DNA from: a virus
Virus record (IMG/VR): IMGVR_UViG_3300040771_000133
Span: 31,877 to 95,876 of that record
Length of the DNA stretch: 64,000 nucleotides
Direction: 5' to 3' (one strand)
The translations under genes and the position numbers were made by a program. A model generated the notes under the pieces. That model saw nothing but the letters and a program-made list of their open reading frames with translations. It had not been told where the DNA came from and ran no database searches. This document shows positions 12,170 through 58,878 of this stretch, piece after piece (positions within the stretch are counted from its first letter, which is position 1; every line of letters starts with the position of its first letter).

Positions 12170-13080
12170 TTACAAAAAAAGTATTAGTAAAAAGTTTAAA
12201 TCCTGAGCTTGCAAGACCTGTATCTCAAAAACCTTTTGTAGGTAGAGGTATTTATAGGCCTATGGTACGCTCTAGACATCCTTCGCACAATGGTCTTAGA
12301 ACAGCTATGAAAAGATTACCATTTAGATCAGTGATTAGAATGGGTTCAACTACAGAGCTTACAGATCTTGCAACATTAAATGGCTCTCGTATTGAGTTAA
12401 ACAGTCCAAAAGCTATTGCAAACAGTAGTAGCAAATTCAAGATGAAGACTTGCTTTACAGAAGCAGGAGTTAAGACTGCTCAATGGGTTAACGGTAATAG
12501 TGTTGCAGAAGTTCTACAGTCTCTTAAAAACGAAGACGGTGATACAATTTATCCATTTGTTGCTAAACATTATTTTGGCTCAAGAGGTACAGGTAACACC
12601 CTTATAAAATCAGAAGAAGAGTTCACTCAATGGGCTATTGGTAAAAACTTTGGAACTTATTTATTTGAGAAGTTTTGCAATTTTAACAAAGAGTATAGAC
12701 TGCATGTCACTAAAAATGGATGCTTCTATTCTTGTAGAAAAATGTTAAAATCTGAATTTAAAGACCATCCTAATGCTTGGCAACGTCACGATGATAACTC
12801 TGTATGGATAATGGAACAAAATCCATCTTTTGATAAACCTTCTAACTGGAAAGAAATTGAAGAACATTGTGTTAACGCATTAAAAAGCTGTGGTTTAGAT
12901 TTTGGAGCATGCGATTTAAGAGTTCAAAATAATACTAATTCTAAAGGTGAAGCTAGAGAATCTATTGATTTTATAGTAGTTGAAATTAACTCAGCACCAA
13001 GTTTTGGTGAAGTAACTCTTGAGAAATATAAAGTTGAGCTTTACAACTTGTTAGTTGATAAATATAATAACAAACAGTAA
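12160..13080 (+). CDS. RimK-type ATP-grasp carboxylate-amine ligase
   Basis: 306 aa. ATP-grasp elements in order: FVAKHYFGSRGTGN with K136 and the Gly-rich loop (about 132-146), FEKFCNFNKEYRLHV with E170, and the metal site ACDLRV (D252) with VVEINSAPSF (E275, N277). Such enzymes activate a carboxylate as acyl phosphate and join it to an amine, as in RimK glutamylation or peptide synthesis. Residues 1-80 are a divergent pre-ATP-grasp domain. It is coupled to the GGCT gene upstream and lies near the amidoligases downstream. Confidence 0.9.
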   Translation: MGLVTKKVLVKSLNPELARPVSQKPFVGRGIYRPMVRSRHPSHNGLRTAMKRLPFRSVIRMGSTTELTDLATLNGSRIELNSPKAIANSSSKFKMKTCFTEAGVKTAQWVNGNSVAEVLQSLKNEDGDTIYPFVAKHYFGSRGTGNTLIKSEEEFTQWAIGKNFGTYLFEKFCNFNKEYRLHVTKNGCFYSCRKMLKSEFKDHPNAWQRHDDNSVWIMEQNPSFDKPSNWKEIEEHCVNALKSCGLDFGACDLRVQNNTNSKGEARESIDFIVVEINSAPSFGEVTLEKYKVELYNLLVDKYNNKQ

Positions 13081-39700: not shown

Positions 39701-42700
39701 CCAAATATGTTAGTTACTATTTCACCATTAACATCTCTTTTTAAAGTGTAAGGTCTAGTAGTTTCACCATTCTGAACAGTTGGTGACCATTTAATACCGT
39801 CATACTTCTTAGTAGCTTCATCTTTTGATAAACCAAAGTTTGACATTTGGATAAATGAACCACCGTTAGTTTTAATTTTAACAGTTCTGTCATTAACAAT
39901 AGATGCAAATATGTTATCAAGTTTATTCTTTAAACCTGGCATTGCATAAATTGATAATTTAGCTCTAAGAGCTTTTACAATTTCTGAACTACCATCTCTT
40001 GATACAACTTCATCAGCTAAAGCATTATAAAACTTTTCAATGTTATTTATAACACCATCTTCACTTATCTCAAACTCTCTAGCTAAATCACTATAACCTG
40101 ACTTAACTAAATTACCTAATGCTGAATCAAGTTCTTTTGCAATTTCTTCAGCAGTATAAGCTTCACCATTATGATCAAAAGTCTTTTGACCAGTACCAGT
40201 TAAGTGAGATATTAAAACTAGCATGTTTTTAATAATCTGACTACCAATATCAGTTTCCTTATACGTTTTAGTAGGTAAGTCTTGTTGAAGTTTCCATCCT
40301 CTAGAAGATAGTGTCATAACGTTTAGACGCTTGATATTACCGTTTTCATCATTTATTACAACATTACCTTCTGCATCATGTATCTTAGTAGGAATACTAG
40401 CTCCAGCTTTAATAGCATCAAAAGTTAATAATTCGTCTAGCTTATGATGTTTCATAAACGTATCTAAATTTTTTAACTTACTGTTATTAATCATCTGAGG
40501 TATTAACACTGCTTGAGAGTACTTCAAATAGATTGGGGCACCATTTGTATCTCTTTCAAAATATACACCTTTTAAAGGTTGTGCTACAAGTTTTAATTCA
40601 TCGGGCAATAAAGCTTCAGTACCGTTCATTAACTTCTTGAATACCTTATCATGCTTGACTGTGTACTTACCTACACCGGTTAATATGTTTTTCCATCTAG
40701 TAGGTGTAATCCAAGCTTGAGCATCGGCAGCATTAATTGTACCTTCCCAGTCTTTTATTAAGTTTTCATCAGACTTAATGACTTCTTTTAATTGTTTTAA
40801 GTAAGGTTCTACAAACTCTACAGCTTCTACTACACCAATCTTAAAATCTTTAGTATCATTTGTTAGGTATTCATATACACCATCAGTGTAAGAGGCCCCA
40901 ATACGTTTAATATAATCTACAGAGTCTTTATAATAAGCTACGTCTCCTGAAAATAGTTTGGAGTATTCCATATGATTAACTAATCCGTTTAACCATATAT
41001 CACCCATCATTGAAAATAAAGTTTCTTCATCTAGATTAAATCTACCTTCAGAATATTTAGTTATTATATTACCGTCAATACCTTTATTAATATAAGAACT
41101 TGTACCGGATCTTTCAATAATGTTATACTTTAGTAAATCATTTTTTAAATCTTCAATATGCTCTAATATCTTACTCTCAATAAACTCTAACATTGGTTCT
41201 TTGTAAAACCTAACGTTCTCCATTATAATACTTCCATCAGAATTATATAATGGGTATGCTGGATTTATTTCAATAGCTTTGTCAACTTGATCAAAACTTA
41301 AACTAGGAAATAATTGAGACTTAAAAGCGTTACCAACAAGTTTACCATTAGAATCAAGAGTTTCGTGAGTATCGGTACTTTTATTATATTTAGTATGATA
41401 ATATACTTTAAGTTGTTCATCAGAATTTAGCTTTTTATATTCAGCTTCCATTCTTTTAAACTCACCCATTAAATATGTATCATACATAAGGTTTACAGTA
41501 GTGCTAATTTCAGAGTCACCATTTTCATCAATGCTAAAACCTGCTTTAAGAAACATATCGTGCTCAATATTAAATTGAGTAGATTTACCCGGAGCAGTAG
41601 TAGTTCTAGTATGAGTAACACCATTTATATGATAATGTAATAAGCCATTAATGGTATCTTTTATGTATTCTGACTTACTAATATCTTTATTAGTCTTAGA
41701 CTTACCTTTATCGTTAGTTTTATCTAAGAAGCTACTAAAATGATTAATAGAGAACTTTTCAATACGCTCAAGACTCTTTGAAAGCTGAAGTTCTTTATTA
41801 TTAGTTATATCTAATCCTAATAAATGACTATATAGTTTAGAGTTAGTGTCATTATCGCCATAAGACTCATATAAGTCTACCAAAAGCTGTCTATCTTTTT
41901 TCCAACCATTTATTAAGTTATGTAAGTAAGAAGGGTTAGAATATACATATCTAGTTTCACCGGCTGTAAATACAGATGACTCAGAACCGTCTTCTCTATA
42001 AAACGCTTCAGCTTTAGCCATTTGTCTATACCAATATGATTCAAGTAATGGTTTACCTTGATTATGATTAACTACAATTGATTTAAACATCTTAACTGTA
42101 TTATCAATTAAGTTATATCGATTCAAATTTAGTTTAACATCATCAATTTTTTCATTTTTTAATTCATTTAAAGCATAACTTACAGCAGCTTCATTAATAT
42201 TGATACCAACTAATGGTAATAATTTGTTTATAATGTTATCAACCTTCTGCTCATTAGTAAACTTTGAATTGGTTTGTAAAGCTTCTAACTTTGCAATAAT
42301 ATCTTTTAAAACTTGTTTCTTACTTTCTCCAATTAAACCTTTAGCTTCGTCAGTCAATTTAAAGAAGTCTGTTAAAGATAACTCCCAACCTGTTGAAATA
42401 CTTTTTTCAATTTTAGTATCAGTTGTTGCATCTAGTTTCGTATACTTATAAAAAAAACCTTTTATAGCTTCTTTAATAGTTTTCTTTATAATAGCACCAT
42501 TATCTAGCGTAACATTTTCTGTTACAGCGGGTGTAACAACAACTTCTTCAGCTGATATTTCAGAATACTCTAAGTTATTTTTCTGAAGATTCATTACATT
42601 AACAAAACTCGCTTTGAAGTTCATTATGTTTATACCTTCTTCAGTAGATAAATCTACAGGTAACCTACTAATCTTTTCTAAATACTCAGCAACATTATTA

Positions 42701-43629
42701 AGATATTTTATATTACCTGAATGTTGATAAAGTTTATCAATTATAGTTTCAAAAATATCTTCAGTCTTACCATTTTTAGATACAGTAACTGGATTATTCT
42801 TTAAGATAGCTGTCATTTTGTTGTACAAATTGTCATAATCTATAGACTTAGGTTGTCCAAAATCTAAATCTAAATCCAAAGGGTTCTTAATTAATGACAA
42901 TCTAATTTTAACCATTGACGTAATTTTGTTACGAGGGTTAATTTTAAATGACGATTGATTAAAAACAGGATCTTTTTGATTTTCAGTTTCAGAAATAGCA
43001 TCTTCTAAACTATAATCTTCATTATAATTAATTTGTTTAGAGTTGTAAAAGTCTTTAATTTTAACAATAAGTTCATCTAAAGCAGCTTCATCATTTACAA
43101 TTTGATATAAAGCTCCACCATTGTTCATAAAATGATCACTATCACTTTGTATTAATTCCAAACCAAGCTCTTCTAAACGTGTTTTAACAGCTTCTAAGAG
43201 ACTAACTTTAGATTTATTATCTGACATATCAAGTGTATCAAAATCTAAGTTAAAACCACCTTTCTCAATATAGTCATTTCCTAGTATTTCTACTAAGGAA
43301 TTGACTGCTCTTTGAGATTGTAATATGTTATATAGATTAGATTCAGCAATATCGATGTATTGCTTTTGATATTGACTGTCTAAATAATAAGTACCAGATT
43401 CGTCATCAAATATCTCAGGTTCAAACTTATCATTTAGTCTACCTTTAAACATTTTAGGTATGAATTCAGATTTCTCATCTATCAATTTGGTGTAATCTCC
43501 AAATTCTTTTATAAAGGCTTCCGATTGAAACATTGCCATTTTTTTATCAGCAACTTCTTTATCGTACTTTTGAATAAGTTTTTTATGTAAACTTGATTCT
43601 AAACCATTTTTTAATATTATACAATCCAT
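36796..43629 (-). CDS. virion-packaged RNA polymerase, crAss-like
   Basis: 2277 aa. TKKTGSDFDIDKMYIMF contains the DxDxD catalytic loop (D1408, D1410, D1412) that binds Mg in single-chain crAss-like RNA polymerases with two double-psi beta-barrels, related to eukaryotic RNA-dependent polymerases. Length and motif position agree with the characterised enzyme of Cellulophaga phage phi14:2 (about 2180 aa, triad near 1361-1365). It is expected to be carried in the virion, ejected into the cell and used for early transcription. The flanking giant genes lie with 0-2 bases between them, indicating one polycistronic mRNA. The first base after it begins the zincin-like giant. Confidence 0.93.
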   Translation of the reverse strand: MDCIILKNGLESSLHKKLIQKYDKEVADKKMAMFQSEAFIKEFGDYTKLIDEKSEFIPKMFKGRLNDKFEPEIFDDESGTYYLDSQYQKQYIDIAESNLYNILQSQRAVNSLVEILGNDYIEKGGFNLDFDTLDMSDNKSKVSLLEAVKTRLEELGLELIQSDSDHFMNNGGALYQIVNDEAALDELIVKIKDFYNSKQINYNEDYSLEDAISETENQKDPVFNQSSFKINPRNKITSMVKIRLSLIKNPLDLDLDFGQPKSIDYDNLYNKMTAILKNNPVTVSKNGKTEDIFETIIDKLYQHSGNIKYLNNVAEYLEKISRLPVDLSTEEGINIMNFKASFVNVMNLQKNNLEYSEISAEEVVVTPAVTENVTLDNGAIIKKTIKEAIKGFFYKYTKLDATTDTKIEKSISTGWELSLTDFFKLTDEAKGLIGESKKQVLKDIIAKLEALQTNSKFTNEQKVDNIINKLLPLVGININEAAVSYALNELKNEKIDDVKLNLNRYNLIDNTVKMFKSIVVNHNQGKPLLESYWYRQMAKAEAFYREDGSESSVFTAGETRYVYSNPSYLHNLINGWKKDRQLLVDLYESYGDNDTNSKLYSHLLGLDITNNKELQLSKSLERIEKFSINHFSSFLDKTNDKGKSKTNKDISKSEYIKDTINGLLHYHINGVTHTRTTTAPGKSTQFNIEHDMFLKAGFSIDENGDSEISTTVNLMYDTYLMGEFKRMEAEYKKLNSDEQLKVYYHTKYNKSTDTHETLDSNGKLVGNAFKSQLFPSLSFDQVDKAIEINPAYPLYNSDGSIIMENVRFYKEPMLEFIESKILEHIEDLKNDLLKYNIIERSGTSSYINKGIDGNIITKYSEGRFNLDEETLFSMMGDIWLNGLVNHMEYSKLFSGDVAYYKDSVDYIKRIGASYTDGVYEYLTNDTKDFKIGVVEAVEFVEPYLKQLKEVIKSDENLIKDWEGTINAADAQAWITPTRWKNILTGVGKYTVKHDKVFKKLMNGTEALLPDELKLVAQPLKGVYFERDTNGAPIYLKYSQAVLIPQMINNSKLKNLDTFMKHHKLDELLTFDAIKAGASIPTKIHDAEGNVVINDENGNIKRLNVMTLSSRGWKLQQDLPTKTYKETDIGSQIIKNMLVLISHLTGTGQKTFDHNGEAYTAEEIAKELDSALGNLVKSGYSDLAREFEISEDGVINNIEKFYNALADEVVSRDGSSEIVKALRAKLSIYAMPGLKNKLDNIFASIVNDRTVKIKTNGGSFIQMSNFGLSKDEATKKYDGIKWSPTVQNGETTRPYTLKRDVNGEIVTNIFGDPVIVPEEILISGSFIAKYIPNYEEFSSEELFGRLNLETGELEGGMIDNKILDTIIGYRIPNQGPSSNGAMKVVGILPPGAGDTIVAFTGITKKTGSDFDIDKMYIMFPNYKEVDGKLKYTDSSDGSKEGNQNKVIELYKTLILHKDNITKIMTSLDHEHIKMEAQNLAPAKTKSDLDNYEFIQDIVTKYSFLAGLAGVGQEANTSSDYAMGTMSNVYLQDVNLGERSHQGESFESTMIGKDGRPYQVVKPLTKFDKIKSMDISDAELKSWLESYNKRVSDPKKKLTFEMVKSYKSFEISDNISALMNAFVDIAKDPYITNVNWNMMTTNTGNMMLRAGVHPFVVMSFLAQPIINEYIEFTSQYENRDKSTQVSNSKDAFRIYKVGELIKNDLIPISKFDNGEVAEINARALYDIVTLYNFDLNKLGEKDFTAPRNLEKIKEAVGLPKEHKFTEADIDQLKESIKPIIRNHGIFFTENFKDYIIDVDLGTLRENVFKYDMRFQAKTFNTFLEFQGFSKKLKSSIDASKHGVNGMGKNTTQLLVALNRIANIEQKGVINYNTKMYYDDGAPKFLSHLKTNNLDRTQNIVQNNPLLFVSSSPFVWNSYNQVSKNIYSINLEDDVQDGLGDKLDKVFNTYLMSGFEPFNLSNAEKSEIIENFPVRFIEFKNKYAGKYKIIDELNVKKTEKRLYITLDNKTNSKEYTDSMINSWRDLIKYYPEIGTDLIRYSFLTSGFNNNVVSFFQFIPPSFFFQNDFNSYIKSFVNHPGSVDQNFIDHFYLSNLEDSQIVKYVNKGMLMKGQPYLKEGLTLFNAGVTKEYLNMKGEYYKRVGTREVKGVSENIYTRYVKVEGGYALIAPVVSERDKGISINNYSSSRIALSTDATLTPETIMSLDIALAEINDDNNQTVQTDEFGQEQIVIKEPLTEFETAETETKNPETIKIKGSENELSELTDEEKATIEWQKLNCK

Positions 43630-43630
43630 A

Positions 43631-46600
43631 TTAACATTTTTGTTGTTTTTTAATATTATCAGCTAACTCTATTAATTTAGCTTCAGTTTCAGAAATTATC
43701 TTTTCAAATTTAGAAACTACTGAAGGATTAGTCTTTCTAAACATTTCAGCATTTTTAATTGCTACATTTAAAGTTCTTTCCAAACCCTCTTGCAATAATA
43801 GATTGTCTCCTTCTACTTTTAAATTATTAAAAGCTTTTTTATAATCAAGGTTATCTTGTGTACCAGGAGTGTTAATAGTATTAGTTAAAGTAATAGTTGG
43901 CAAAGATACAACATTTTTCTGAGACTGCAAAATATTATTGTAGTTATTTTCAATAGTTTCTGAAATAAATTCTTTTATTACATCATATGTTTCAAGACCA
44001 TCGCCTGGATTAAACCCTTCATCTGTATATATACCTGTACCATTTTCAACAATTTCATTTAACTCATTCACTAAGTAATCAGGACCTTTTATAGTATCTT
44101 GACCTTCTTTGCGTTTAGATAATATGTATGTAACTAACTTATTATATTCAGCTATTTTAGATTTAATTAAGTCCTGCTTAGACATTGTGTTTACAACAGG
44201 CGCAGTAATAGCTGGTTTAACTTCAGTTGCACCTGCTTTCTCACTTTTTAACAAAGGTGATATTTTTTCATCGTATTCATCATAAAGTTGTTTTTGCTCA
44301 ACGTCGTATTTAGCATTAACTTTTTCTTGTATGTTTTTTCTTTCTAATAAACTTTTATTTTCTCTTAAATTAAAATCTATTCCAACTGGTAATAACCAAT
44401 TGGCATTTCTGTCAACAAGCTCTTTATCTCTTCTTTGCTCAATATCAGCTTTTTTAACTTGTTCTTCAGCTCTCAATTGTTCTACAGTTGAAGTATTTGA
44501 AGCAGCAAGTGTAGTAGTTACTGGAGCTTTAGCACCAGTAGATTCAACTACAGAACTTATCCATAACTCTGAACCTGTGTTCTTAGCTTTATCACCAGCT
44601 TTAGTATCAGTAAATTGTTTAAAAGCAAATCCATCCGTGTTCAAGTTTGTAGATACAATTCCATTATCAAATAAATACTTAAGATAAATAGGATTCTTAA
44701 AACTTAAATTCTCGTTGGCATTCTTTTCTTTGGCTATAGTAATAACATTGTGATATTTACTTTGTAAAGCTACACCAAGTTCATCTATATTATCATTGTT
44801 GTATAATGTTCCATCAAATAATATAGCTGGATTGTTTTCAATATCGTTAGTAAATACAATAGCTTTATCATTCATACTATCTTCGTAGACTAATGCTTGA
44901 ATAACCTCACTTATATTTATTGTAGCAGGATTTCCTCCTAACAACTCTAATTCATCTTTAAATGAACTTAAGATTTCATTAAACAACCCTAAATCAGAAC
45001 TCTTTAAGCTAATCAAATTCTTACTTCTTATAGTAGTATCTGTTAGCATTTTACCATATAGTCTAGCTAATGTTGAAGCTTTGGTAGCATTAAGTTTGCT
45101 AAAGTTTAATTTAACTGGAACATTAACTCCTTTTGGGTTTTTAACTACAATAAAAATTTGACCCTTTTGAGTACTAATATCTTTCTTAATCTCAGCTTCT
45201 AAAGGAAGTTTATTATTAGATACTATTACTAAATCACCTTTTACATTTACGTGATATAATGTAACTTTATTTTCAGGATTACTTTCATCTAAAGTTTTTA
45301 TAAAATCTATTTCTAAAGGATTATTTATAACAGGTTTACCATTTTCAAACTTAGTATTAAAACTTGCAGATTCTTGATTAGTAACTACAGTTTTCAATTC
45401 AGAAAGTTTAGCACCATTTATTATAGCATCTACTATATTAGTTCTTAATTTAATGGCATTCGGACCTTTAAATGATGACCAAGACTTAGCTTGACCATTA
45501 TTGTAAACAAAAGTAATAGGTAGTGTATCTATAAGAAGTTGTCTATTACCTATTAAATTAGTACTGTTTTTAATAATATCAACAGCTTTTTGACCTTCAG
45601 GTGATAAATTTAATTCATTTAATTCAAATGTTATAACATCACCTTTCTTATCTCTAGCTTCCATTAAATAACCTGCAAACGTAGGGTTATTATTATCATA
45701 ACCTACACCTTTATGATCTGAATGCGTAGATCCTGCTGGAACAACCGATACCTTAGTAGGATCAATATCATCTGCAGAATTATCATCGTTTAAATCTTCT
45801 TCAAATTCGTATGTAAAAGATTCACCAGTTACAGCATTAGCTAAAGTAATACTGTTTTTTTCAATATGAGTTATGATAGATTCTTCTAATGTAAAAGGAT
45901 CTAATTCTACATTACCTATTTTAGAAGTTTTTGCATAATTCTTAACTATTGTTGCATTTTCAGCAGCTTCTAATTCAGCAGCTTTTCTTTCAGCTTCTTC
46001 TTCTTCAATGGTTTTAACAGTTCCAGCAGCTTTAGCGGCTTGCAATTCAATTTTTTTAGTGTTATAATAACCTTTATAACCTAAATTATTTTTTAAATCG
46101 ATAGCGTCTAATTCTTCTAAAGTACTAGCAGCTTGTATAGCATTTAATATATTATCAGCTTCATCAACAACTTCTGGACTAGTGGCAGTTTCTAACTTTT
46201 CAACAGCATTAACTATTTGATTAAATGCTCCATTTACTATTTCAGAATTCCATATTTCAAAGTTTAAAAGTTTTGATGCATCAGATAGCTCTTTTTTTAC
46301 TTCAGCAATTTTTTTGTTTACTAAATCTAATCTAGGGTTACTTCTAGTAGTTGTAGTTCTATCAGCTTCATTAGAGTTGAATTCTTCAAAGTTTGTATTA
46401 TCAACTTCTTCAACTATAGTTAGTTTTTCTAAATCAGCTTTATCTTTATTAAGTTTATCCAACCTTTTTTGATTATCATAAACTTCAGAAGTTTCTTTAA
46501 TAAATTCTTTTGACATTTGCTCCATGAAACTACTAACTTGATCAGGAGTAGCTTTTTCATTGTTTAGTTTAACAATAGAAGTCGACATATCTCTAAAAGA

Positions 46601-48445
46601 AACTAATTCTTTTTGTAAATATTTAGCTTTCTCAATTATCTCAGTTTGACGTTTTAAGTTATCAGATTTAGTTTTGGCATCAACATCTGTTGTAGGCAAA
46701 GTAACTTTTAAATGCTCTTGTAAAGCATCGATAGTCATTTCATCTTCACCTATAAAGTTCATTATTAATTCATGCTCACCATACTTTCTTAAAGAATCTA
46801 TTGTATCAACATCCCCAGCTTCAACAGCTGCATCATATCGTTTAGATAAACCTTCATGTAAGTCTAGCGCATGTTTAACTTTTTGAACATTCTCAGGTAT
46901 CAAAACTTTTTGACCTTTATCATCTTGAGAATATACTTCAGTTTCTTCTCCAGTTTCTGGGTTAGTCATAACCTCAGTTTTGTATATTGGAAGATGAATG
47001 TCATTTAATGATACACCTGTAGTTTCTATTTTAGACCTAAGTTTATCACTTTTAACTTGATCTTTCTTATCTTGCCTAAAACCTTGAACTATAGATATTG
47101 GTGCACCTAACATACCTCCTAAGAAACCAGCAACTTGACCTTCAGTCGTACCCAGTGACTTTATAAAATCTTTACCAAATGTAAATGGATCCATATCTTG
47201 TGCAAAAGTATCACTAAGTTCACCTTTAAAACCTTTTTCAGCATTACGTTGTTCAGTAGATGTTTGAGCAACTTCTTCACTACCTTCAGTTAAGAATGAC
47301 TCACCCAATCTTTTACCAGCTTGTTTTAAACCATTCTTTTTAGTAACATTGTTTAATAGGTTAGTTGAGCCATTCTTACCATACATTATTTTAGACTGTA
47401 TATAGTTTGGTCCAGCTAATATTAAAAGGTTAGTTAAAAATGTATTACGAGCAGCTTTACTTTTTTGATCATCATACTCTTCCCTAGCAGTTCTATTACT
47501 TATATCGTTAGATAATTGATTAGCTTCTTCAACACTTATTTCACCACGTTGTCTACGCTCATCAACTTCTTGTAATTTTTTTAATTGATATTCTGGAAAG
47601 CCTTTTTCAAATTCAGGAAATCTAGCTTCCATACTATCAGTAACACCTTTTGATTCAGCACCAGCTTCAAAAAACGTATTAGCTGCTGGTATAGCAAAGC
47701 TATCAATCTTATCTACAGTTATACCGGCTTGAAGTAAAGCTCTTCTAGAAACATCTAATGATTTACCATACCTCATCGAAGTAAGTTTTGCTAAACCTCC
47801 AAACAGTTTATTACTAGCTCCTAAAGCTTTAAGAGCAGCTCCAGGTGCAAAAGCTGATATTAAATATCCAGCTCCATCAGCACCTTCTGTAGCCCAAAAT
47901 TCACCACTAGTAATTTTATTAAAAAAGCCACCATTTGTTACAGTGTCACTAACGTATACTGGTAATGCAGCGTTGTTAAACTTATTAAAGTTTTCATCTA
48001 CAGCTCTTATAAAACTATTATCAAAAGCATCTTTTAATAAGTCAGTATTATCTTCTCCTGTAACCATGTCAGCAGCATTACCGGCTAATCCCCAAGCTGT
48101 ACCTGCTATAGCACCAGCTGTTTTTAAAACTTCTCTAGTTACTTTAGAACCCACTCTACCTAGACCTGCGCCTAGTTCTCCCCAACCACCTTGTTGTTGA
48201 GATCTAAATTCATTTAATGATTTGTTTACATTATCTGTATTAATATCTGTTTCAAAATTTAATTTTTCATCATATTTTGATTTACCATAATCTGTGTTAT
48301 AAAATCTATTATTATTTATGACATTGCTATATAAAGACATTGGTGTGGCATTTTTTTTATCACTTGTTATTTTATTAGCTAGATTGGACGGAGATGGTTT
48401 TTTAAAATTATTTGGGCTACTATTTACTAATTCTTCCTCTTCCAT
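43631..48445 (-). CDS. giant virion/ejection protein, 1604 aa
   Basis: Companion of the RNA polymerase. Residues 1-60 are polar and disordered-looking. Residues about 85-225 carry Gly/Ala-rich amphipathic segments (GWGELGAGLGRVG, AGAIAGTAWGLAGNAADM, YLISAFAPGAALKALG), the kind that line or cross membranes in ejected proteins. A long Glu/Lys-rich coiled-coil region lies near 650-860, including AAKAAGTVKTIEEEEAERKAAELEAAE. No catalytic motif is seen. By position and size it matches the giant cargo proteins of crAss-like phages; forming part of the ejection channel is inferred. Confidence 0.8.
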   Translation of the reverse strand: MEEEELVNSSPNNFKKPSPSNLANKITSDKKNATPMSLYSNVINNNRFYNTDYGKSKYDEKLNFETDINTDNVNKSLNEFRSQQQGGWGELGAGLGRVGSKVTREVLKTAGAIAGTAWGLAGNAADMVTGEDNTDLLKDAFDNSFIRAVDENFNKFNNAALPVYVSDTVTNGGFFNKITSGEFWATEGADGAGYLISAFAPGAALKALGASNKLFGGLAKLTSMRYGKSLDVSRRALLQAGITVDKIDSFAIPAANTFFEAGAESKGVTDSMEARFPEFEKGFPEYQLKKLQEVDERRQRGEISVEEANQLSNDISNRTAREEYDDQKSKAARNTFLTNLLILAGPNYIQSKIMYGKNGSTNLLNNVTKKNGLKQAGKRLGESFLTEGSEEVAQTSTEQRNAEKGFKGELSDTFAQDMDPFTFGKDFIKSLGTTEGQVAGFLGGMLGAPISIVQGFRQDKKDQVKSDKLRSKIETTGVSLNDIHLPIYKTEVMTNPETGEETEVYSQDDKGQKVLIPENVQKVKHALDLHEGLSKRYDAAVEAGDVDTIDSLRKYGEHELIMNFIGEDEMTIDALQEHLKVTLPTTDVDAKTKSDNLKRQTEIIEKAKYLQKELVSFRDMSTSIVKLNNEKATPDQVSSFMEQMSKEFIKETSEVYDNQKRLDKLNKDKADLEKLTIVEEVDNTNFEEFNSNEADRTTTTRSNPRLDLVNKKIAEVKKELSDASKLLNFEIWNSEIVNGAFNQIVNAVEKLETATSPEVVDEADNILNAIQAASTLEELDAIDLKNNLGYKGYYNTKKIELQAAKAAGTVKTIEEEEAERKAAELEAAENATIVKNYAKTSKIGNVELDPFTLEESIITHIEKNSITLANAVTGESFTYEFEEDLNDDNSADDIDPTKVSVVPAGSTHSDHKGVGYDNNNPTFAGYLMEARDKKGDVITFELNELNLSPEGQKAVDIIKNSTNLIGNRQLLIDTLPITFVYNNGQAKSWSSFKGPNAIKLRTNIVDAIINGAKLSELKTVVTNQESASFNTKFENGKPVINNPLEIDFIKTLDESNPENKVTLYHVNVKGDLVIVSNNKLPLEAEIKKDISTQKGQIFIVVKNPKGVNVPVKLNFSKLNATKASTLARLYGKMLTDTTIRSKNLISLKSSDLGLFNEILSSFKDELELLGGNPATINISEVIQALVYEDSMNDKAIVFTNDIENNPAILFDGTLYNNDNIDELGVALQSKYHNVITIAKEKNANENLSFKNPIYLKYLFDNGIVSTNLNTDGFAFKQFTDTKAGDKAKNTGSELWISSVVESTGAKAPVTTTLAASNTSTVEQLRAEEQVKKADIEQRRDKELVDRNANWLLPVGIDFNLRENKSLLERKNIQEKVNAKYDVEQKQLYDEYDEKISPLLKSEKAGATEVKPAITAPVVNTMSKQDLIKSKIAEYNKLVTYILSKRKEGQDTIKGPDYLVNELNEIVENGTGIYTDEGFNPGDGLETYDVIKEFISETIENNYNNILQSQKNVVSLPTITLTNTINTPGTQDNLDYKKAFNNLKVEGDNLLLQEGLERTLNVAIKNAEMFRKTNPSVVSKFEKIISETEAKLIELADNIKKQQKC

Positions 48446-48447
48446 AA

Positions 48448-50259
48448 TTAATTATTTAAATCTATTAACCATTCGTTTAATTGATTGTCATTGAGTTTAT
48501 GATCTTCTTTAATAAGATTTTTACCATCATTATAATGATAGCTTACATCATATGTTCCGCTATTTCTATTAAATTTTATTTCAACATTCTTCATACCATG
48601 ATTTTTAAAACCTGAAATTTTATCAGAATTTAAGTGATGGTATATACTTGGGGAAGTTGTAACTTGATTTTTTATTAAGTTAATGTCAGAAGCCCCTTTA
48701 TATTGAGGAGTTTTGAAATCGTCTGTATTTCTAGAAACATAAACTGGTATAATATTACCTTCTATATCTACTACTGAACCTACATGCGGTATGATATTCA
48801 TTTTTGGATTATTTTTAAAAGCTTTTACTTTAGATTCAGGAGTCATATCTCCATTATATTCAAAGCTTCGTATGCTAGATGCAGGTATGATATTTCCATT
48901 AAAATCTACAACTGATGATGCTCCTAATTTTATTTTGCCAAGTAAATTTAAAGATGCTGCCTTTTTTTCTTTTGGTAAATTTCTGTTGGCAAATAACATT
49001 CCAACTTGAGAACTATTTGGATCAACGTACCTATTTTGAATAGTAACATTTGCGTTTTCAGATAAATATTTTTTAACAGCATTATATTCTTCAGTACTAT
49101 TTCTTTTGAATTTTAATTCTTTTGGTAAATTTCTATTTAAACCGTTTGCTATATTTACATATTTTGGGTCATTGAATACTTTTGATTTTTCAGTTTTACC
49201 TCCAATTTTAAACAAAGGGGCGTTAAAAGGGCTTTGTTTATCACGCTCTTCTTTAGTAAACTGAGTAATTTTACCATTAGCTAAAATTCCCATACTTTCA
49301 GCTAAAGCAGTATTAGATTCATTTAAAACACCTTCTCCTAAATTAACACCTTCTAATTCTATAGGGTTAGAACCTTTGCCATCTTTAGGCTCTGAAGGTG
49401 GATTATATCCACTTATTTGAGAACTTGAGCTACTAGCTACATTATTCTTTACAAATACTGGAGCTAAATTTTGAATATCTTTTAATGCATCTTCAGGACT
49501 TTTAAAATTATATTTCAATGATTTACCAACATCAGAGTTGGGATTCATTATTTCAGTATTTAAAAAGTTAACTGCAGCTTGTAATGCTGCTACATTTGAT
49601 GAACTAGCATTTTTACCACTTTCTGTTAATACATAAGTTCCACCATCACCAGTTTTAGCGATGCGTGATGATAAATTTTCAATATCACGAGAGCTTAAAC
49701 CAGCTTTATCTGCTATATCTTTAAATCTAGCAACGTGATCTACGTACTTAGGTGGTAATTTATTAATTGACATTCCAGTAACTTTACCACTTTTATCATA
49801 AACTGGAGCAGCATTATATTCATCTTGTATAGCTTTTAAGTTTTGTTGAACTACTTCAGGTGAATGACCTAATGCTGTAGCACTTTTAAGGTATTCATCG
49901 GAATCTTTTTCATAAGCTGTTTTAGCAGCATTAATTTGACCCAAAGCTCCAGTAGGCGAATACATATCTGCAACACTTCTATTAGTTTTAAATATACTAC
50001 TTGTAGTATTATTATTAAAACCCTCTGTAGCAAGTTTTTCAGCTTGTGAAGTTATCGTACCAGTTAATTCAGATTTAATTCGTTGAGCTTCATTATAATG
50101 TTTATCTAATGGACTAACTTTATTTAACTCAAGTATTTGATTTTCTAATTGTTTATTAGCTTCATCATGTTGTTGACGTCTCATCATAGGAACCATAAGA
50201 GTCTCTTGAAGACTCCTAGGGTTGTATGTACTTAATTCAATATTATCGTATCTATTCAT
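48448..50259 (-). CDS. cargo-region virion protein, 603 aa
   Basis: Helical N-terminal half (residues 25-75, MMRRQQHDEANKQLENQILEL), a Ser/Asn-rich linker near 270-295 (VASSSSSQISGYNPP), and a C-terminal beta-rich part with repeated GNIIPASS / GNIIPVYV-type strands. It lies between the 803-residue and 1604-residue cargo proteins with 2-6 base gaps. Not recognised beyond that context, which indicates a structural or ejected protein. Confidence 0.7.
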   Translation of the reverse strand: MNRYDNIELSTYNPRSLQETLMVPMMRRQQHDEANKQLENQILELNKVSPLDKHYNEAQRIKSELTGTITSQAEKLATEGFNNNTTSSIFKTNRSVADMYSPTGALGQINAAKTAYEKDSDEYLKSATALGHSPEVVQQNLKAIQDEYNAAPVYDKSGKVTGMSINKLPPKYVDHVARFKDIADKAGLSSRDIENLSSRIAKTGDGGTYVLTESGKNASSSNVAALQAAVNFLNTEIMNPNSDVGKSLKYNFKSPEDALKDIQNLAPVFVKNNVASSSSSQISGYNPPSEPKDGKGSNPIELEGVNLGEGVLNESNTALAESMGILANGKITQFTKEERDKQSPFNAPLFKIGGKTEKSKVFNDPKYVNIANGLNRNLPKELKFKRNSTEEYNAVKKYLSENANVTIQNRYVDPNSSQVGMLFANRNLPKEKKAASLNLLGKIKLGASSVVDFNGNIIPASSIRSFEYNGDMTPESKVKAFKNNPKMNIIPHVGSVVDIEGNIIPVYVSRNTDDFKTPQYKGASDINLIKNQVTTSPSIYHHLNSDKISGFKNHGMKNVEIKFNRNSGTYDVSYHYNDGKNLIKEDHKLNDNQLNEWLIDLNN

Positions 50260-50264
50260 TGCTA

Positions 50265-52676
50265 TTATTTGTTTCTTTTAGTATTTAAGTAACCGCCATA
50301 TTTAAAAGTTTGAACTTTTCCATTTTCATCAGTGTACTTATCACCTTTCTTTAAAGTTGGAAGTGTTGATTCAGTAACAGATTTGAGTTTACTTATTTGC
50401 TCTGGCGTAACTTTAGTTCCATCAGGTTTGTATAAATACTTACCTTTGCGAGTATAACCTGTTAAAGCTGATGCTAACTGAGAATCAGCAATCTCTTTAC
50501 CTATTGCTCCTGCAGAATTACCTAAACTTGCAATCATTTTAGATTTAGCACTTCTATAAGCCGAATCATCCATTCTATTTTCATCGATAGTTTTATTAGC
50601 TGTAGCGGCATTAGATTGATCTATATTAGCATCAAACTGTTGCTTTTGAGCATCTTGAGCTCTATTTTGAGCAGATGAATTAGCGTATACATCGCTTAAA
50701 GCTTTAGTTCGGTTAAGACTTGCACCTAAAATAGAATTACGAATAGCACCTTGAGATGCTCCAGATTGACTAATTGCAGATATAGCATTATTACTTTCAG
50801 CATCCACTATATTTCTACCTTGAGCTTCATCTATGTATAATGGTTTATATTTATTATTTAAAGTTTTATATTGAACACCTGTAGGTTTCTTTAAGTTTTT
50901 CATTTGAAGTAAGTTAGCAGCTATAGGAGCATATCTTAAAGCTTCACCTGCATTATCACCAACAAACTTTGATACATCTTTACCTATTAATTTAGCCTTA
51001 TCTAGATATGGATTGCTGTCATAAGGATTTTGTATATCTAATGGTATTGATGTTGGTAACATAGCTTCGTTTTTAGATGTAACTAATCCAGTAGGTGTTA
51101 GTTCAGAAACTGGTTTTAAATTACCACCTTTTTTAAATTTAGTTTGACCTTTCATATAATTAGCCCATTCAGGAGTTCTTTGAACAGTCATCATTTCAGA
51201 TTGTTTAACAAACTCCCTATCCTTATTTACATCGAATCCAGGATCGGTTACATTTTTACTATACAAATAAAAACCACTTCCCATCTTATCATTCATTACA
51301 CCGGGTTGATACCTTACAATAGGTTTTGTATTAAATCTCATATCATCGCTAATAGGAGTAGTACTTATTCCATTTAAAGATTGTGGATTAATAGTTGGTT
51401 TAACTGGCGGGTCAATTAGTCCACCATTAGCATATTTGTATATATTTAAATTACCACCATTAGCGGCATAATTTTCAAAACGCATACGGTTGTTATTAGC
51501 TTGGAATCTTTCATTATTTAAAACTTCAGCTTTTCTAGCTTTACCTAAACCAGCTACACCAGCTATTAAACCTACACCACCACCGATAGCTGCTCCTACA
51601 GGACCAAACGCTGCACCGGCTGCTGCACCTTTAACTGCAGAACCTCCAATCATGCTTACTCCACCAACTCTATTAGAAGCATAAGCTCCACTAGTATCTT
51701 GAGCAGCTTTTCCAAATGCAGTTTGACCTAATGCCAAAGCTGTGCCTAAACCATTTGTTACACCAGCTGTAATTTGTGAACCAGTCATACCGTCTTCTCC
51801 AGGAACATCGGATGCGTCTACTTTACCATCTAAATTAGCATCACCTTGTATGTATCCGCCATCATTATATTTTTTTTGCATACCACCGTAAACAGCCATT
51901 GGTTGAGATTCTTCAGGTTGAACAAATTCTTCCATACCTTCAGGAATTTGACCTTGCATCATATCTTCTGGAGCTTGCTCAGAATTAGCTTGCATAGCTT
52001 GCTTAGTTTGATCTTGTTCAGCTTTAACAGACTCTTGAGCATTAGCTAATCTATCTAGTAAAGCTTTCTTAGTTTCAGAAGCATATTTATCATTTCTATC
52101 TTTAAATTTGTCCTCAATAGCTTTAGAAGCAGCTGATACAGATTTATTTGCAGCATAACCTGGTAAATTAAATTGTTTAACTCTACTAGAGTCTAATGTA
52201 ATTCTATCTGAATAAACAAAATTACCAGATTTAGTTTCCCCTTGTTCAACTGTATTCATATTACCTTGAGCGTCTTGACCTTGAGGTATACCACCTAATG
52301 GATTTTGTTCATGAGTACCACCTTCGTTAAATCTTGTTAAATTTCCTCCATCTGCATATTGAGTTTGAGGTTTAACATTATATTTTTTTTCCATAAAGTC
52401 AACACCTTCAGTTATTATATTATCAGTTTGTGCTAAACCAAGCATTTTAGCTTGATGTTTCATAGTATTAAATGCACCTTTTGCTAAATTAACACTGTAT
52501 TTAGGAATTCCCATATATAGGTTTCCTGGCAGATTCCATAATGCGGAATCAGTTACATCTTTCATATTTTTTTGAACATATTCTTGAGCTAGTTCTTTTC
52601 TTGCTTGTAGTAAAGACTTTTGATAAGCTTCTCTGTTTAGTTGTTCACCACTTTTCTTTTTAGTTGGATCTGGCAT
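50265..52676 (-). CDS. cargo-type virion protein with repeated GG motif, 803 aa
   Basis: First gene after the leader terminator. Features in order: Lys/Gln-rich helix (1-45); YADGGNLTRFNEGG (107-120) leading into THEQNPLGGIPQG; an Asp-rich EF-hand/dockerin-like loop DANLDGKVDASD (279-290); a Gly/Ala-rich zipper of about 60 residues (about 345-400); further YKYANGG, FKKGGNL and terminal FKYGGYL motifs. The 107-135 block is familiar from structural genes of Bacteroidota phages. It is probably packaged in capsid or tail; the zipper may insert in membranes or oligomerise. Function otherwise unknown. Confidence 0.75.
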   Translation of the reverse strand: MPDPTKKKSGEQLNREAYQKSLLQARKELAQEYVQKNMKDVTDSALWNLPGNLYMGIPKYSVNLAKGAFNTMKHQAKMLGLAQTDNIITEGVDFMEKKYNVKPQTQYADGGNLTRFNEGGTHEQNPLGGIPQGQDAQGNMNTVEQGETKSGNFVYSDRITLDSSRVKQFNLPGYAANKSVSAASKAIEDKFKDRNDKYASETKKALLDRLANAQESVKAEQDQTKQAMQANSEQAPEDMMQGQIPEGMEEFVQPEESQPMAVYGGMQKKYNDGGYIQGDANLDGKVDASDVPGEDGMTGSQITAGVTNGLGTALALGQTAFGKAAQDTSGAYASNRVGGVSMIGGSAVKGAAAGAAFGPVGAAIGGGVGLIAGVAGLGKARKAEVLNNERFQANNNRMRFENYAANGGNLNIYKYANGGLIDPPVKPTINPQSLNGISTTPISDDMRFNTKPIVRYQPGVMNDKMGSGFYLYSKNVTDPGFDVNKDREFVKQSEMMTVQRTPEWANYMKGQTKFKKGGNLKPVSELTPTGLVTSKNEAMLPTSIPLDIQNPYDSNPYLDKAKLIGKDVSKFVGDNAGEALRYAPIAANLLQMKNLKKPTGVQYKTLNNKYKPLYIDEAQGRNIVDAESNNAISAISQSGASQGAIRNSILGASLNRTKALSDVYANSSAQNRAQDAQKQQFDANIDQSNAATANKTIDENRMDDSAYRSAKSKMIASLGNSAGAIGKEIADSQLASALTGYTRKGKYLYKPDGTKVTPEQISKLKSVTESTLPTLKKGDKYTDENGKVQTFKYGGYLNTKRNK

Positions 52677-52692
52677 AGTATAATTTATTTAT

Positions 52693-52725
52693 AAAAAAAG
52701 GGATAGAAACTTAATTCTACCCCTT
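52693..52725 (-). terminator. intrinsic terminator in leader of cargo operon
   Basis: On the minus strand, AAGGGGTAGAA (from 52725) pairs with TTCTATCCCTT over 11 base pairs including one G-U, with a 6-base loop and a run of seven U (52699-52693). It lies between the tail protein gene and the start of the 803-residue protein at 52676, and downstream of the promoter at 52752-52783. Confidence 0.85.
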
Positions 52726-52751
52726 ATATTTGGTTGTTAAATTTTATATTA

Positions 52752-52783
52752 CAAATATACGGAATATTTATTATATATCCAAA
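52752..52783 (-). promoter_or_regulatory. Bacteroidota-type promoter for the cargo/RNA polymerase operon
   Basis: Minus strand: TTTG (52783-52780), 20 bases, then TATATTTG (52759-52752). This fits the primary sigma consensus of Bacteroidota, TTTG at -33 and TAnnTTTG at -7. It lies in the only sizeable gap of the minus-strand structural block, directly ahead of the cargo genes. Transcription would start near 52745 and meet the terminator within about 20 bases. Confidence 0.65.
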
Positions 52784-52814
52784 GTATTATCCATATATTT
52801 TATAATATTTATTA

Positions 52815-55800
52815 TTATGAAGTATAATACACATCAATATCATGCAATATTAACTTCTCATTATTAGTTGGTAAATACTCTAGTTTTAACTTCATCCACG
52901 ACGATCTAATTCTAGTTCTACCTTGTCTAGGTATTAAAGCGTTCCAAGTTCTAAATTTACGTCTTATATTATTATTACGACCAACTGTCAATGAGATTTT
53001 ACCAGAGTTTTGATGATCGTTATAAGCTGTAATACTATTCAAAGTTAATAGTGATTGATCTACACCGTTTATATATACTTCAGAGTTGTAACTTATGTTA
53101 TCAAATATACACTCTGAATTAGGCTCAGGATTAACATTTAAAGTTATAGTTGAAGGATACTTAACACCATAAAATGTATTGTAATCACCTTTCTCTTGAC
53201 GATAGATAGATTTATTTAATGGGTTAGTTGTAAATATATGATCACCTTTACTAATATATATACTTGGTAAATAGTCATGATATGATATAAACTGACCTCT
53301 AGTTTCATTAAAAGATAATGTAAAAGGTGTTTTACCAGTTTGATTAAATGTCATAAACATATCATTGTTATTATAATCATAACCTGATGATACTCCAGTT
53401 TTTATTAACGGATTATCTATTTTAAGAGATTCTGAGGATGTATTATTTATAAAGAAAGTATGAAGTCCTTTACTATTAGTTAAGTCTTCTAAACCACCTT
53501 TAAATGACATTAAAGAGCTATTTAAAGTATCGTAGTAATATAAACTCTGAGGAGTTGTAATTACACTCCACTTATTTAAAGTTCCTGAGTCAGTAGATAT
53601 ATACTTATATCTATCTAACACACTTCCACTTCCTAACTGTATAGCTAAACCATCTTGACCTTGAACTTGCACCCTAGGGTTAATAGATAAAAATGATAAC
53701 GCTGTATCCTGAATAGCATACAACTCATCGTTAAAACTAACTAAGGAGTTAATTTCTCCATACTTACCATCTAAAGTCAATACTTCATTTACTTGCAAAT
53801 CTGTCCAGCTATCAATAGTTTCACCTGCTGATTTTAATTTACTAGATATTATGTTTGTATCAAAATTATTAAAAGTTTTAATATTATAATTCAAACCTCT
53901 TCTTTCTAATAAAGTTGGTTGTTGAGAATAAACTCTGTTATATTGGTTGTATACTTCAAAACTTGGTTGAAATGTACTATCCCAAGATTGATTACTAGAA
54001 TCATTTCTATTTTTAATATCAAGAGTTGTTTCAAGCTTTACATTAACAATTTCTGTAATTTGAGCTTCAGATGTGTCAGTTATATTTATTTCAGTTTTTA
54101 CTAATTTAGTAAATTTAAAATTATCAACGTATGTATCACCTGGATTAAAACAATTGTAAGTTGGAGTTTGTATATCTACAACATTACCAAATTCCAAGTA
54201 AGAACTTCTTTTTTTAGATTCATATGAATTACCACCGTATATATTACCAGTATAGATTACATTATTTGGAATTGTAAACTCAGCAATCATACCGTGATAA
54301 TCACTACTGTTATTACCAGCTCCAGAATATAAAATTCCTCCGGCATCAGTAAATAAATCTTCAAAATAAGTAGTATTACCAACAGCGCCTACAGTTTCAG
54401 AAGCTCTATTACCTTTTAAAGCAAATATTGAATTCCTGCATCCCCAAGAAAGAACTGTTGTTAATCTTTCAGCATCATCACCTTGATCACCACCATCTGT
54501 ACCTAAAGGTTGCAAAGAATTTACTATTCTAAATGAAGCGTCATTATTGTAAGTAGTAGGACCTTCACCTTTATCAAGTATAATTGGTTTTTTATAAACA
54601 TCATATACGCGTCTGGTGTTCAATATATCACCAGTATAAGATCTATAAAACTGAGTAAGACTAGAAGTATTAGTGTCATTAGTATGAGATATTAAACCCA
54701 TAAACTGTATACCTGTAGGATCATATTCTGAAACTTCAGTTAAGTTACCAGCAGCTTTTACATCATATTTACTAATTGCAGTATTAATTTTTAAAGTCTC
54801 TTTAGTAAATCCAGAAGTTAATATTTTTTCACGAAGCCAAACTCTATTTTCATCATTTTTAATTCTACCAACAACTGTTAGTTGAGTAGCATTTATATTG
54901 TTAACCTCATTGAATAATATTTCAGGAGAAAACATTTGCATAAGCTTTGTATACTGAACTGTTGTAAAGAATAATGGTCCAGCATTATTAGCTTGTATTT
55001 CTCTAGCAGGAGCTCCACCAGAATTAGTTGAGTTAGGATGAGTTGGTCGCCAAGAACTTACTTTAGAATAGTTTTTAGTTCTACGCATAGGTGCTAAATA
55101 AGCGTCAAACCTTCTCATTAATGATGGAATTTTTACACCAGTTTCACCTCTAGTTACAAGAGATGCATTACCATCTTCTTCATTAGGATCACTACCTGTA
55201 CTAATTGACATCATGCCATTTAACAAACCTTGACAAAGTATAGTCCTATCTGTAGTATCCCTTTCGCTTCTTAGCAGTCTATAACCTACTGGTTTTAAAC
55301 TATCATCGTATGTTCCAGATTCATCTAAGAAGTTTGAGTTATTGTTAAGCCATGTATAAAATGCGGGTTTAAAGTCTATCTTAAAACCGGAATAATATCC
55401 ATTTAAGTTTGAAAGATTACCGTTAGTTTTTACTTTAAAATCATTTATCCATTTTGGACTAGTGTTTTGACCGTATTTATTGTAAAATTGCAAAGCAGTT
55501 CTATAAACTTCATTATCTTTGAAAAATTGTTTTTTAGAATCTTCAATTGTAAATCCGTTTACACCAATTTGATTTCTAGTCAGTTCATATTTTATAAACT
55601 TACCTTCACCACCAATAGTTGTACCATTACTTTGAAAGCAATATGTATCAAAATTAATATTAGAAGATGCATGTGTAGAAACTGGTAAAGTTAAAAAAGA
55701 ACTTGATATAGTTACTTCATCTGTACCTACTAATAAACCTGATATGTTTTCAGTTATATTGTTATAAACTTTAGCTAAACCTGATGAGTCAAAACTGAAT

Positions 55801-56903
55801 GATCTAAAATCAATTGTAGCAGGTGTTTTAACATCTATATCAAAGTTTTTTTCATTATAATTTGCAAAAAACATTCTGTTAAACTTTGTACTTATATGCT
55901 TTGGTATGATTATGTCAGATCCTAGAAACGTAAATTCTTCTAAAGATATTGATTGAATGATATTACCATCATCTGAGTACGTAAACTCAGTTAATCCAAC
56001 AATGTTTCTATCAGCAATTAAGCTTACAGCTGGTATTTCATTATAGCTGGTATACTTAATAGCATATAATCTTATATTAGTATAAGTATCATCTAATGAT
56101 GGTATATTTACTACAGGTATTGAACTTACAACCTCGTTTACAGCACCTCCGCCAGAACCAACACCTTTATTTAAACTAATTAGTTCACTTAAAGGGCTTA
56201 TTTTTGTTTGAGAACTATTTATCTTATATAAATTATAAGCATATTGTATCATTCCTGCAGTATGAGAACCACCTGAATTAATGTCTATTATTTTAGGTTG
56301 AGATAACTCAAAACTCCCAGTAGAATTTATAATATTAGAATCTATATCTATAAGTTCCTCAGCGTCTTGATTAGCTATAGAATGATTTATATTTAAAAAC
56401 CTCATTTGATTTAAACCGTCTACCCAATATACTTTATCAATAAGTTTGTTTTCAAAGTTATTAACAGCTTGTATAGGTTTTAAAATGTTAAAACCCATAT
56501 TTCTTAAGTACAATAATGTTAAATCATTTGCTGCAAAGTTGTACTTCCATACACAATCAAATCCTAAACTATCAGTTGTAAACAATATTGCACCGTCTCT
56601 ATACAACGTATGACCAATTATAATTTGATCAAGACTTTGTGACGGTCCAATTAATTCAGAAGTGTTATAAGATAAAGATTTTATACCATAAGAAATTGTT
56701 TTAGCAGAATAGTTAATAATTGGTACAGGAATTGTTAAAGTTAATAAATTACCTTTTTCATTAGTTACTGCACCTGTACTTTGAGAATCAGTGGCTGCTA
56801 TTTTGATATTCTTACCTTCAAAATAAAATCCGTTACTAAACTTATTAGTAGTAACGTCTTGCATCATACCTCCGTATGAATGCTGAATATTCTTATTTGC
56901 CAT
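52815..56903 (-). CDS. large tail protein (muzzle / tail-stabilisation type)
   Basis: 1362 aa, starting MANKNIQHSYGGMMQDV. Almost wholly beta-rich with Asn/Ser/Thr-rich strands and no coiled coil or enzymatic motif, as expected for a beta-propeller/barrel tail protein. Position after three ring-type genes and before the cargo operon matches the crAss-like gene order in which this protein closes the distal end of the short tail, described as P22 gp10-like tail stabilisation or muzzle protein. Placement is by size, composition and neighbours. Confidence 0.8.
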   Translation of the reverse strand: MANKNIQHSYGGMMQDVTTNKFSNGFYFEGKNIKIAATDSQSTGAVTNEKGNLLTLTIPVPIINYSAKTISYGIKSLSYNTSELIGPSQSLDQIIIGHTLYRDGAILFTTDSLGFDCVWKYNFAANDLTLLYLRNMGFNILKPIQAVNNFENKLIDKVYWVDGLNQMRFLNINHSIANQDAEELIDIDSNIINSTGSFELSQPKIIDINSGGSHTAGMIQYAYNLYKINSSQTKISPLSELISLNKGVGSGGGAVNEVVSSIPVVNIPSLDDTYTNIRLYAIKYTSYNEIPAVSLIADRNIVGLTEFTYSDDGNIIQSISLEEFTFLGSDIIIPKHISTKFNRMFFANYNEKNFDIDVKTPATIDFRSFSFDSSGLAKVYNNITENISGLLVGTDEVTISSSFLTLPVSTHASSNINFDTYCFQSNGTTIGGEGKFIKYELTRNQIGVNGFTIEDSKKQFFKDNEVYRTALQFYNKYGQNTSPKWINDFKVKTNGNLSNLNGYYSGFKIDFKPAFYTWLNNNSNFLDESGTYDDSLKPVGYRLLRSERDTTDRTILCQGLLNGMMSISTGSDPNEEDGNASLVTRGETGVKIPSLMRRFDAYLAPMRRTKNYSKVSSWRPTHPNSTNSGGAPAREIQANNAGPLFFTTVQYTKLMQMFSPEILFNEVNNINATQLTVVGRIKNDENRVWLREKILTSGFTKETLKINTAISKYDVKAAGNLTEVSEYDPTGIQFMGLISHTNDTNTSSLTQFYRSYTGDILNTRRVYDVYKKPIILDKGEGPTTYNNDASFRIVNSLQPLGTDGGDQGDDAERLTTVLSWGCRNSIFALKGNRASETVGAVGNTTYFEDLFTDAGGILYSGAGNNSSDYHGMIAEFTIPNNVIYTGNIYGGNSYESKKRSSYLEFGNVVDIQTPTYNCFNPGDTYVDNFKFTKLVKTEINITDTSEAQITEIVNVKLETTLDIKNRNDSSNQSWDSTFQPSFEVYNQYNRVYSQQPTLLERRGLNYNIKTFNNFDTNIISSKLKSAGETIDSWTDLQVNEVLTLDGKYGEINSLVSFNDELYAIQDTALSFLSINPRVQVQGQDGLAIQLGSGSVLDRYKYISTDSGTLNKWSVITTPQSLYYYDTLNSSLMSFKGGLEDLTNSKGLHTFFINNTSSESLKIDNPLIKTGVSSGYDYNNNDMFMTFNQTGKTPFTLSFNETRGQFISYHDYLPSIYISKGDHIFTTNPLNKSIYRQEKGDYNTFYGVKYPSTITLNVNPEPNSECIFDNISYNSEVYINGVDQSLLTLNSITAYNDHQNSGKISLTVGRNNNIRRKFRTWNALIPRQGRTRIRSSWMKLKLEYLPTNNEKLILHDIDVYYTS

Positions 56904-58805: not shown

Positions 58806-58818
58806 ATGTGTTTAAATG

Positions 58819-58858
58819 AAAAAAGGCTCTCACTAATAGTTATATCGGTGAGAGCCTT
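58819..58858 (-). terminator. intrinsic terminator upstream of ring genes
   Basis: AAGGCTCTCAC (58858-58848 read on the minus strand) pairs perfectly over 11 bp with GTGAGAGCCTT (58833-58823), followed by a U-run of six (58824-58819). It stops transcripts of the metallophosphoesterase gene and lies only 14 bases before the ring gene start. Confidence 0.88.
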
Positions 58859-58878
58859 GGTTATAAGTTTTAGTTTTT

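Follow-up and report, generated by a model that had tools for sequence, protein, structure and literature searches.

The textbook case of a late promoter leading directly into a terminator of its own is the pR′-tR′ pair of phage lambda, in which the terminator lies much farther from the start site than it does in the unit described here. Partial terminators are also used to set stoichiometry in phage operons, as seen for Tφ after gene 10 of T7 and for the terminator between genes VIII and III of M13. The pR′-tR′/Q arrangement is present in Stx phages (PMC6266700). In crAss-like phages, the late genes are probably transcribed by the host RNA polymerase, and in crAss001 expression of the polymerase subunits partly precedes that of the structural genes (PMC10136315, PMC8375218). 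The timing and dosing of late genes in crAss-like phages are little understood so far, and no description of a promoter feeding its own terminator in these phages was found in the limited literature searched.

The unit analysed here lies between the tail and cargo genes of a crAss-like phage. Similar to lambda pR′-tR′/Q, it has a late promoter whose transcripts meet a terminator before they reach the genes it feeds, so that expression of these genes needs readthrough. The sequence-only reading of this DNA had suggested that a switch of this kind would be new, an overstatement in view of lambda pR′-tR′. The differences from the lambda system are that no Q-type gene was found here, that the unit feeds a cargo sub-operon rather than all late genes, that its terminator begins ~22 nt after the predicted start site, that any regulation of the unit is putative, and that the arrangement is absent in sister phages. 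The unit would work like an attenuated promoter and is not assigned to the Q system. As with the T7 and M13 terminators, the focal terminator is in line within a structural operon whose downstream genes are reached by readthrough; it differs from them in having a conserved promoter just upstream and in that its leakiness is assumed.

Genes around the gap

The window, that is, the whole 64,000-nucleotide stretch analysed (G000:C1:31877-95876), comes from a virus record of 95,876 bases. Among named phages, the nearest relative is Cellulophaga phage phi14:2 (Steigviridae), with which the 1362-aa tail protein shares 42% identity. The genes flanking the focal gap, in order of transcription, are as follows.

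52815 to 56903, minus strand: tail “stabilization”/virion structural protein, 1362 aa, upstream of the gap (sequence comparison)
50265 to 52676, minus strand: crAss_CARG1 (Crassvirus cargo protein 1), 803 aa, first gene downstream (Pfam PF25725)
48448 to 50259, minus strand: second gene of the cargo operon, 603 aa (ORF)
43631 to 48445, minus strand: third gene of the cargo operon, 1604 aa (ORF)
36796 to 43629, minus strand: virion RNA polymerase of 2277 aa, homologous to gp66 of phi14:2 (PDB 6vr4, E = 1.5e-164)
32590 to 36795, minus strand: final gene of the operon, 1401 aa (position)

Judged by position, the 1401-aa protein is the counterpart of the RNA-polymerase-associated protein of phi14:2. 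The gene after the gap had been labelled the first cargo gene, correctly so, because residues 109-228 of its 803-aa product constitute a crAss_CARG1 domain (PF25725, E = 3.7e-21). The gap had also been called the only real one; at 138 nt it is the largest in the structural block, but other gaps of 57-103 nt carry promoters or terminators as well. In two further structural-block gaps (G000:C1:10224-10325 and 12726-12828), a promoter has its −33 box overlapped or directly flanked by the 3′ arm of a long hairpin.

The promoter before CARG1

The elements within the gap are listed below.

52780 to 52783, minus strand: −33 box of the late promoter, TTTG (sequence; conserved in relatives)
52752 to 52759, minus strand: −7 box, TATATTTG, exactly 20 nt past the −33 box (sequence; spacing shared by relatives)
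52747, minus strand: predicted transcription start (from the placement of the Flavobacterium −7 box)
52726 to 52751, minus strand: A-rich, G-free stretch of 26 nt from the −7 box to the hairpin (sequence)
52698 to 52725, minus strand: intrinsic-terminator hairpin, 11 bp with a 6-nt loop (fold, shuffles, covariation)
52693 to 52699, minus strand: T7 tract of the terminator, two of its T's lying within the stem (sequence)

As the sequence-only reading had it, the minus strand carries TTTG-N20-TAnnTTTG, followed by an 11-bp hairpin with seven U and then by the start of CARG1. The promoter contains the TAnnTTTG element and the TTTG ~20 nt upstream that characterize primary-sigma promoters of Bacteroidetes. 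Both boxes and the 20-nt spacing match those of Bacteroidetes sigma-A promoters (TTTG/TAnnTTTG), with no difference in the features compared. In Flavobacterium sigma-A promoters, TAnnTTTG is located at −12 to −5 (PMC9723704), which would place +1 at ~52747 and the first base of the hairpin at ~+23.

Across the window, TTTG-N17-23-TAnnTTTG matches 10 times against 5.8 expected; this chance-level count was rejected as proof of a promoter. The earlier argument that the promoter exceeds chance is instead borne out by two other observations. In 20 genomes, TTTG-N20-TAnnTTTG yields 62 matches, mostly on one strand per genome, compared with 19 for a reversed control. In addition, the promoter is kept in the same gap of ~40 of 60 crAss-like relatives, as far as crAss001, with a spacing of 20 nt and rarely 19. 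Because of this conservation and the genome-wide count, the promoter is beyond chance.

By eye, the late promoters of the 20 related genomes have an extended consensus of approximately TTTGGAAATGTCAAATATTTTTTGTAYMTTTG and a strong one-strand bias per genome. An operator-like dyad, TAT[AC]TTTG-N8-CAAA[GT]ATA, spans the −7 box and start site in L010, L011, L022, and L029 (L numbers denote the loci of relatives), all of which have the terminator first, and near-matches are present in L025, L026, and L055. The window has TATATTTG-N19-CAAATATA. The dyad looks real in several of the terminator-first relatives and was dropped as a defining feature of the window.

The leader and terminator

The hairpin, AAGGGGTAGAA-TTAAGT-TTCTATCCCTT, has a predicted stability of −14.6 kcal/mol. 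Stems with at least 11 perfect pairs and a T tract occur once in the window and in none of 40 shuffles; the stable stem, the immediate U tract, and the departure from chance are those of an intrinsic terminator. The arms covary in relatives, where pairing in register holds at 78 of 80 stem positions as opposed to 40-53 when the arms are slid, and where arms pair with their own partners at 9.75 of 10 positions and at 7.9 of 10 after swapping, counts that come from related sequences and hence from non-independent events. MAFFT alignments A2 and A3 placed some hairpins out of register; therefore, a script with a fixed register was used to count the pairs. The relatives' terminators retain the U tract alongside the covarying arms, and the terminator appears to be genuine.

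The T7 tract is followed by 16 nt and then by the CARG1 ATG at 52676. Inspection of this interval shows no room for another promoter, so the CARG1 mRNA must traverse the terminator, and any such mRNA starts either at the focal promoter or in the tail operon. The 26-nt stretch before the hairpin contains no start codon (ATG, GTG, or TTG) and does not fold by itself. Neither a leader peptide nor an alternative antiterminator stem of the trp type was found in the leader, where the terminator is the only notable fold. Since the leader lacks both a peptide and a competing fold, an RNA-only switch is unlikely. An Rfam search of the window returned only a tRNA and no riboswitch or known cis-regulatory RNA. 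The tRNA gene, at 50-123 of the window, matches at 38.6 bits and was missed by ARAGORN.

A short leader ending in a terminator is also the minimal architecture of a small RNA. The unit might thus encode an RNA of ~55-57 nt, composed of a short single-stranded 5′ part and the terminator hairpin, with readthrough being secondary. The 5′ part is invariant between the window and its relative L003, as a small RNA would lead one to expect. The complementarity of the leader to translation starts of the phage's own genome, the only targets considered, is at chance level (39% of shuffled leaders equal it), the leaders differ between families, and there is no Rfam match; a small RNA is quite improbable.

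Three arrangements of the same gap

The orthologous gap was located by the upstream 1362-aa tail protein, the alignment of which added 76 further loci. Three arrangements, A to C, were read by eye from a listing of the gaps, and a stricter script recognises fewer of them. The promoter → terminator order (class A) is observed in ~11 relatives, counted as the window, L003, L008, L009, L026, L028, L031, L032, L035, L036, and L049. In L035 the −7 box is degraded, and L042 is a near-copy of L036. L047 was left out, its apparent hairpin being judged coding sequence of the start of the downstream gene, as was L019, in which the promoter-hairpin order is looser (~50 nt). At every class A locus, the distance from promoter to hairpin is 26-30 nt, though the leaders differ. 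Exact searches of viral contigs for the hairpin and promoter found only the contig of L003, and a DNA search of named phage records with the element matched only its poly-T/AT tail, an uninformative stretch.

The reverse order, terminator → promoter (class B), is seen in L010, L022, L025, L048, and L056, among others. In crAss001 (L068), the promoter is of the same type as in the window and also precedes the cargo genes, but a hairpin with a T-rich tail comes before it. Class C has the promoter alone, with the ATG near the predicted start, and includes phi14:2, L015, L020, L043, and others; phi14:2 has the promoter type of the window in front of the cargo genes and no terminator. In the promoter-only loci L015, L016, L020, L021, L041, and L043, a set that includes phi14:2, the ATG coincides with the predicted start or lies only a few bases from it, and these phages possibly produce leaderless mRNAs for the cargo operon. 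L082 and L083 are crAss-like contigs in a metagenome-assembled genome labelled “uncultured archaeon” and are probably mis-binned.

The downstream gene families are identical across classes A, B, and C. In a tail-protein tree built by a quick method, the arrangement switches repeatedly: L002, the row closest to the window, is class B behind an inserted endonuclease gene, L003 adjoins the class B locus L010, and L049 adjoins L024. The gap therefore offers natural variants with the same neighbouring genes, close sisters included, in which the effect of the terminator on cargo dose can be tested.

These arrangements bear on the possibility that the terminator acts mainly as an insulator, ending tail-operon transcripts, while the output of an inherited promoter past the terminator hardly matters. 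Many relatives have a terminator directly after the tail gene, ahead of the promoter, and the order switches several times on the tree, as such a role would allow. Nonetheless, the promoter and leader are conserved as well as the hairpin, and with no promoter past the terminator the cargo genes would be wholly dependent on readthrough, which makes a purely insulating role improbable. Of the related earlier suggestion, that a chance promoter precedes the terminator of the upstream operon, the first part fails, as the promoter appears genuine; it may well be, though, that transcripts of the tail operon also end at this terminator.

Preservation of the unit

From the −33 box through the end of the T tract, the window and L003 are identical at 93 of 93 bases, whereas 30 of 53 four-fold sites (57%) are identical in the last 200 codons of the preceding gene. 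Homology between the two ends directly after the T tract. The same contrast between unit and four-fold sites is seen in L031/L032 and L035/L049 and is weaker in L008/L009. This pattern suggests that selection has maintained the promoter-terminator pair in relatives. Gene conversion may have contributed to the identity, because the focal gap is a hot spot for homing endonucleases; the recurrence of the contrast in several pairs weighs against gene conversion alone.

Directly past the conserved terminator, the N-terminal ~105 residues of CARG1 (window 52360-52676) cannot be aligned with L003 (from 5007 on), which points to an N-terminal swap. GIY-YIG genes are present in the focal gap of ~12 of the 60 relatives (L002, L008, L023, L024, L027-L030, L036, L038, L056, and L057), where they lie ahead of the promoter, past the terminator, or in the interval separating the two. 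The gap of L039 holds an HNH-like gene recognised by eye only, with no Pfam match.

A promoter-gene-terminator cassette that lost or never gained its gene, and now lacks a function, could leave the same arrangement. Genes do sit between promoter and terminator in L023 and L024 (GIY-YIG) and in L038 (a 98-aa gene), the class A leader is as long as leaders ordinarily are in these phages, and endonucleases home to this gap. The empty unit is, however, conserved and its hairpin covaries, unlike a mere relic. An emptied cassette is good as an origin and weak as a function, and as an explanation of the present unit it is highly improbable.

Other late promoters and terminators

Outside the focal gap, 40 further TTTG-N20-TAnnTTTG sites were found, of which ~34-36 are intergenic, with the ATG mostly 15-30 nt past the −7 box. 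These late promoters have an extended consensus in common, and at none of the 40 does a terminator lie between promoter and ATG; the promoter → terminator order is for this reason peculiar to the focal gap. Terminators that are in line within an operon recur elsewhere, one of them in the window.

58823 to 58858, minus strand: another in-line terminator, 17 nt ahead of the start codon (ATG) of a 223-aa tail-operon gene (sequence; relatives)

In this gap (58806-58878), no promoter follows the terminator, which has counterparts in ~33 relatives, including crAss001. Because promoterless in-line terminators are common before the ATGs of late-operon genes, readthrough or antitermination must occur in these operons anyway. 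A terminator hairpin before a 191-aa gene at G000:C1:4749-4816 (AAAGGGGAGAGAG..CTTTCTTCCCTTT), also without a promoter, is very similar to the hairpin in the focal gap of L036.

A proposed attenuated late promoter

The reading preferred here, tentatively and at somewhat less than even confidence, is that of an attenuated late promoter at which readthrough sets a fixed level rather than serving as an on/off switch. Host RNA polymerase carrying the primary sigma factor would start at ~52747 and soon reach the intrinsic terminator, where most transcripts would stop after ~55-57 nt, leaving a by-product RNA. The fraction that reads through, together with readthrough from the tail operon, would provide the mRNA for CARG1 and the 603-aa and 1604-aa proteins, presumably at a low dose. 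The terminator would both separate the tail operon from the cargo operon and reduce the yield of the cargo promoter. Level setting suits the locus better than an essential switch because sister phages without the terminator keep the same genes, and readthrough is likely to be normal in these operons because in-line terminators before ATGs recur at ~33 loci. Leakiness has to be assumed, since the terminator looks strong by sequence (11 bp, T7, −14.6 kcal/mol). Two observations speak against a level setter: it does not require an invariant leader such as that identical in L003, to which gene conversion could contribute, and none of the other intergenic promoters examined, all of this kind, is arranged in this way.

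Next in rank is regulated antitermination, which is possible though unlikely. The polymerase would be halted at the terminator unless a factor from phage or host, acquired at the promoter or in the leader, allowed it to proceed, and the cargo would be made late. The order and compactness of the unit are as in lambda pR′-tR′, the spacing of promoter and terminator is near-fixed, the spacer and leader are strongly conserved within families (leaders differ between them), and several more in-line terminators in the late operons could be served by one processive factor. A profile search of the genome for the known families NusG (PF02357) and Antiterm (PF03589) found no homologue, and unfamiliar factors would escape it. 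In addition, the other late promoters have no downstream terminator, and sister phages manage without the promoter → terminator unit. A fixed attenuator is the simplest reading. The broader proposal that in this phage group the cargo genes, which encode ejection proteins, are under the control of factor-dependent antitermination at a minimal promoter-terminator unit, rearranged in sisters to terminator → promoter, is likewise unlikely; if true, the unit would be the first antitermination switch in Crassvirales. Regulated readthrough would be a sign that an abundant order of viruses has an antitermination factor.

Promoters of the RNA polymerase gene

A switch that keeps the whole 20-kb operon off, as the sequence-only reading proposed, is not supported. 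The claim falls because several relatives have a separate promoter next to the RNA polymerase gene, namely in the genomes of L003 (a TTAG variant), L032, L025, and L023, and probably in that of L009; L003, L032, and L009 are themselves class A. Further reasons are that sisters with the same genes have the terminator first or none, that the leader shows no RNA-based switch, and that promoterless in-line terminators are common in late operons. The earlier expression of polymerase subunits in crAss001 is consistent with separate promoters. A promoter is located directly upstream of the virion RNA polymerase gene in L128, L131, L132, L133, and L092. The window has a weaker candidate at 43931-43901 on the minus strand, with a 19-nt spacing, 302 nt upstream of the polymerase gene and within the preceding gene; similar sites recur in L125, L126, and L130, perhaps because the encoded peptides have a motif in common that ends in VSL.
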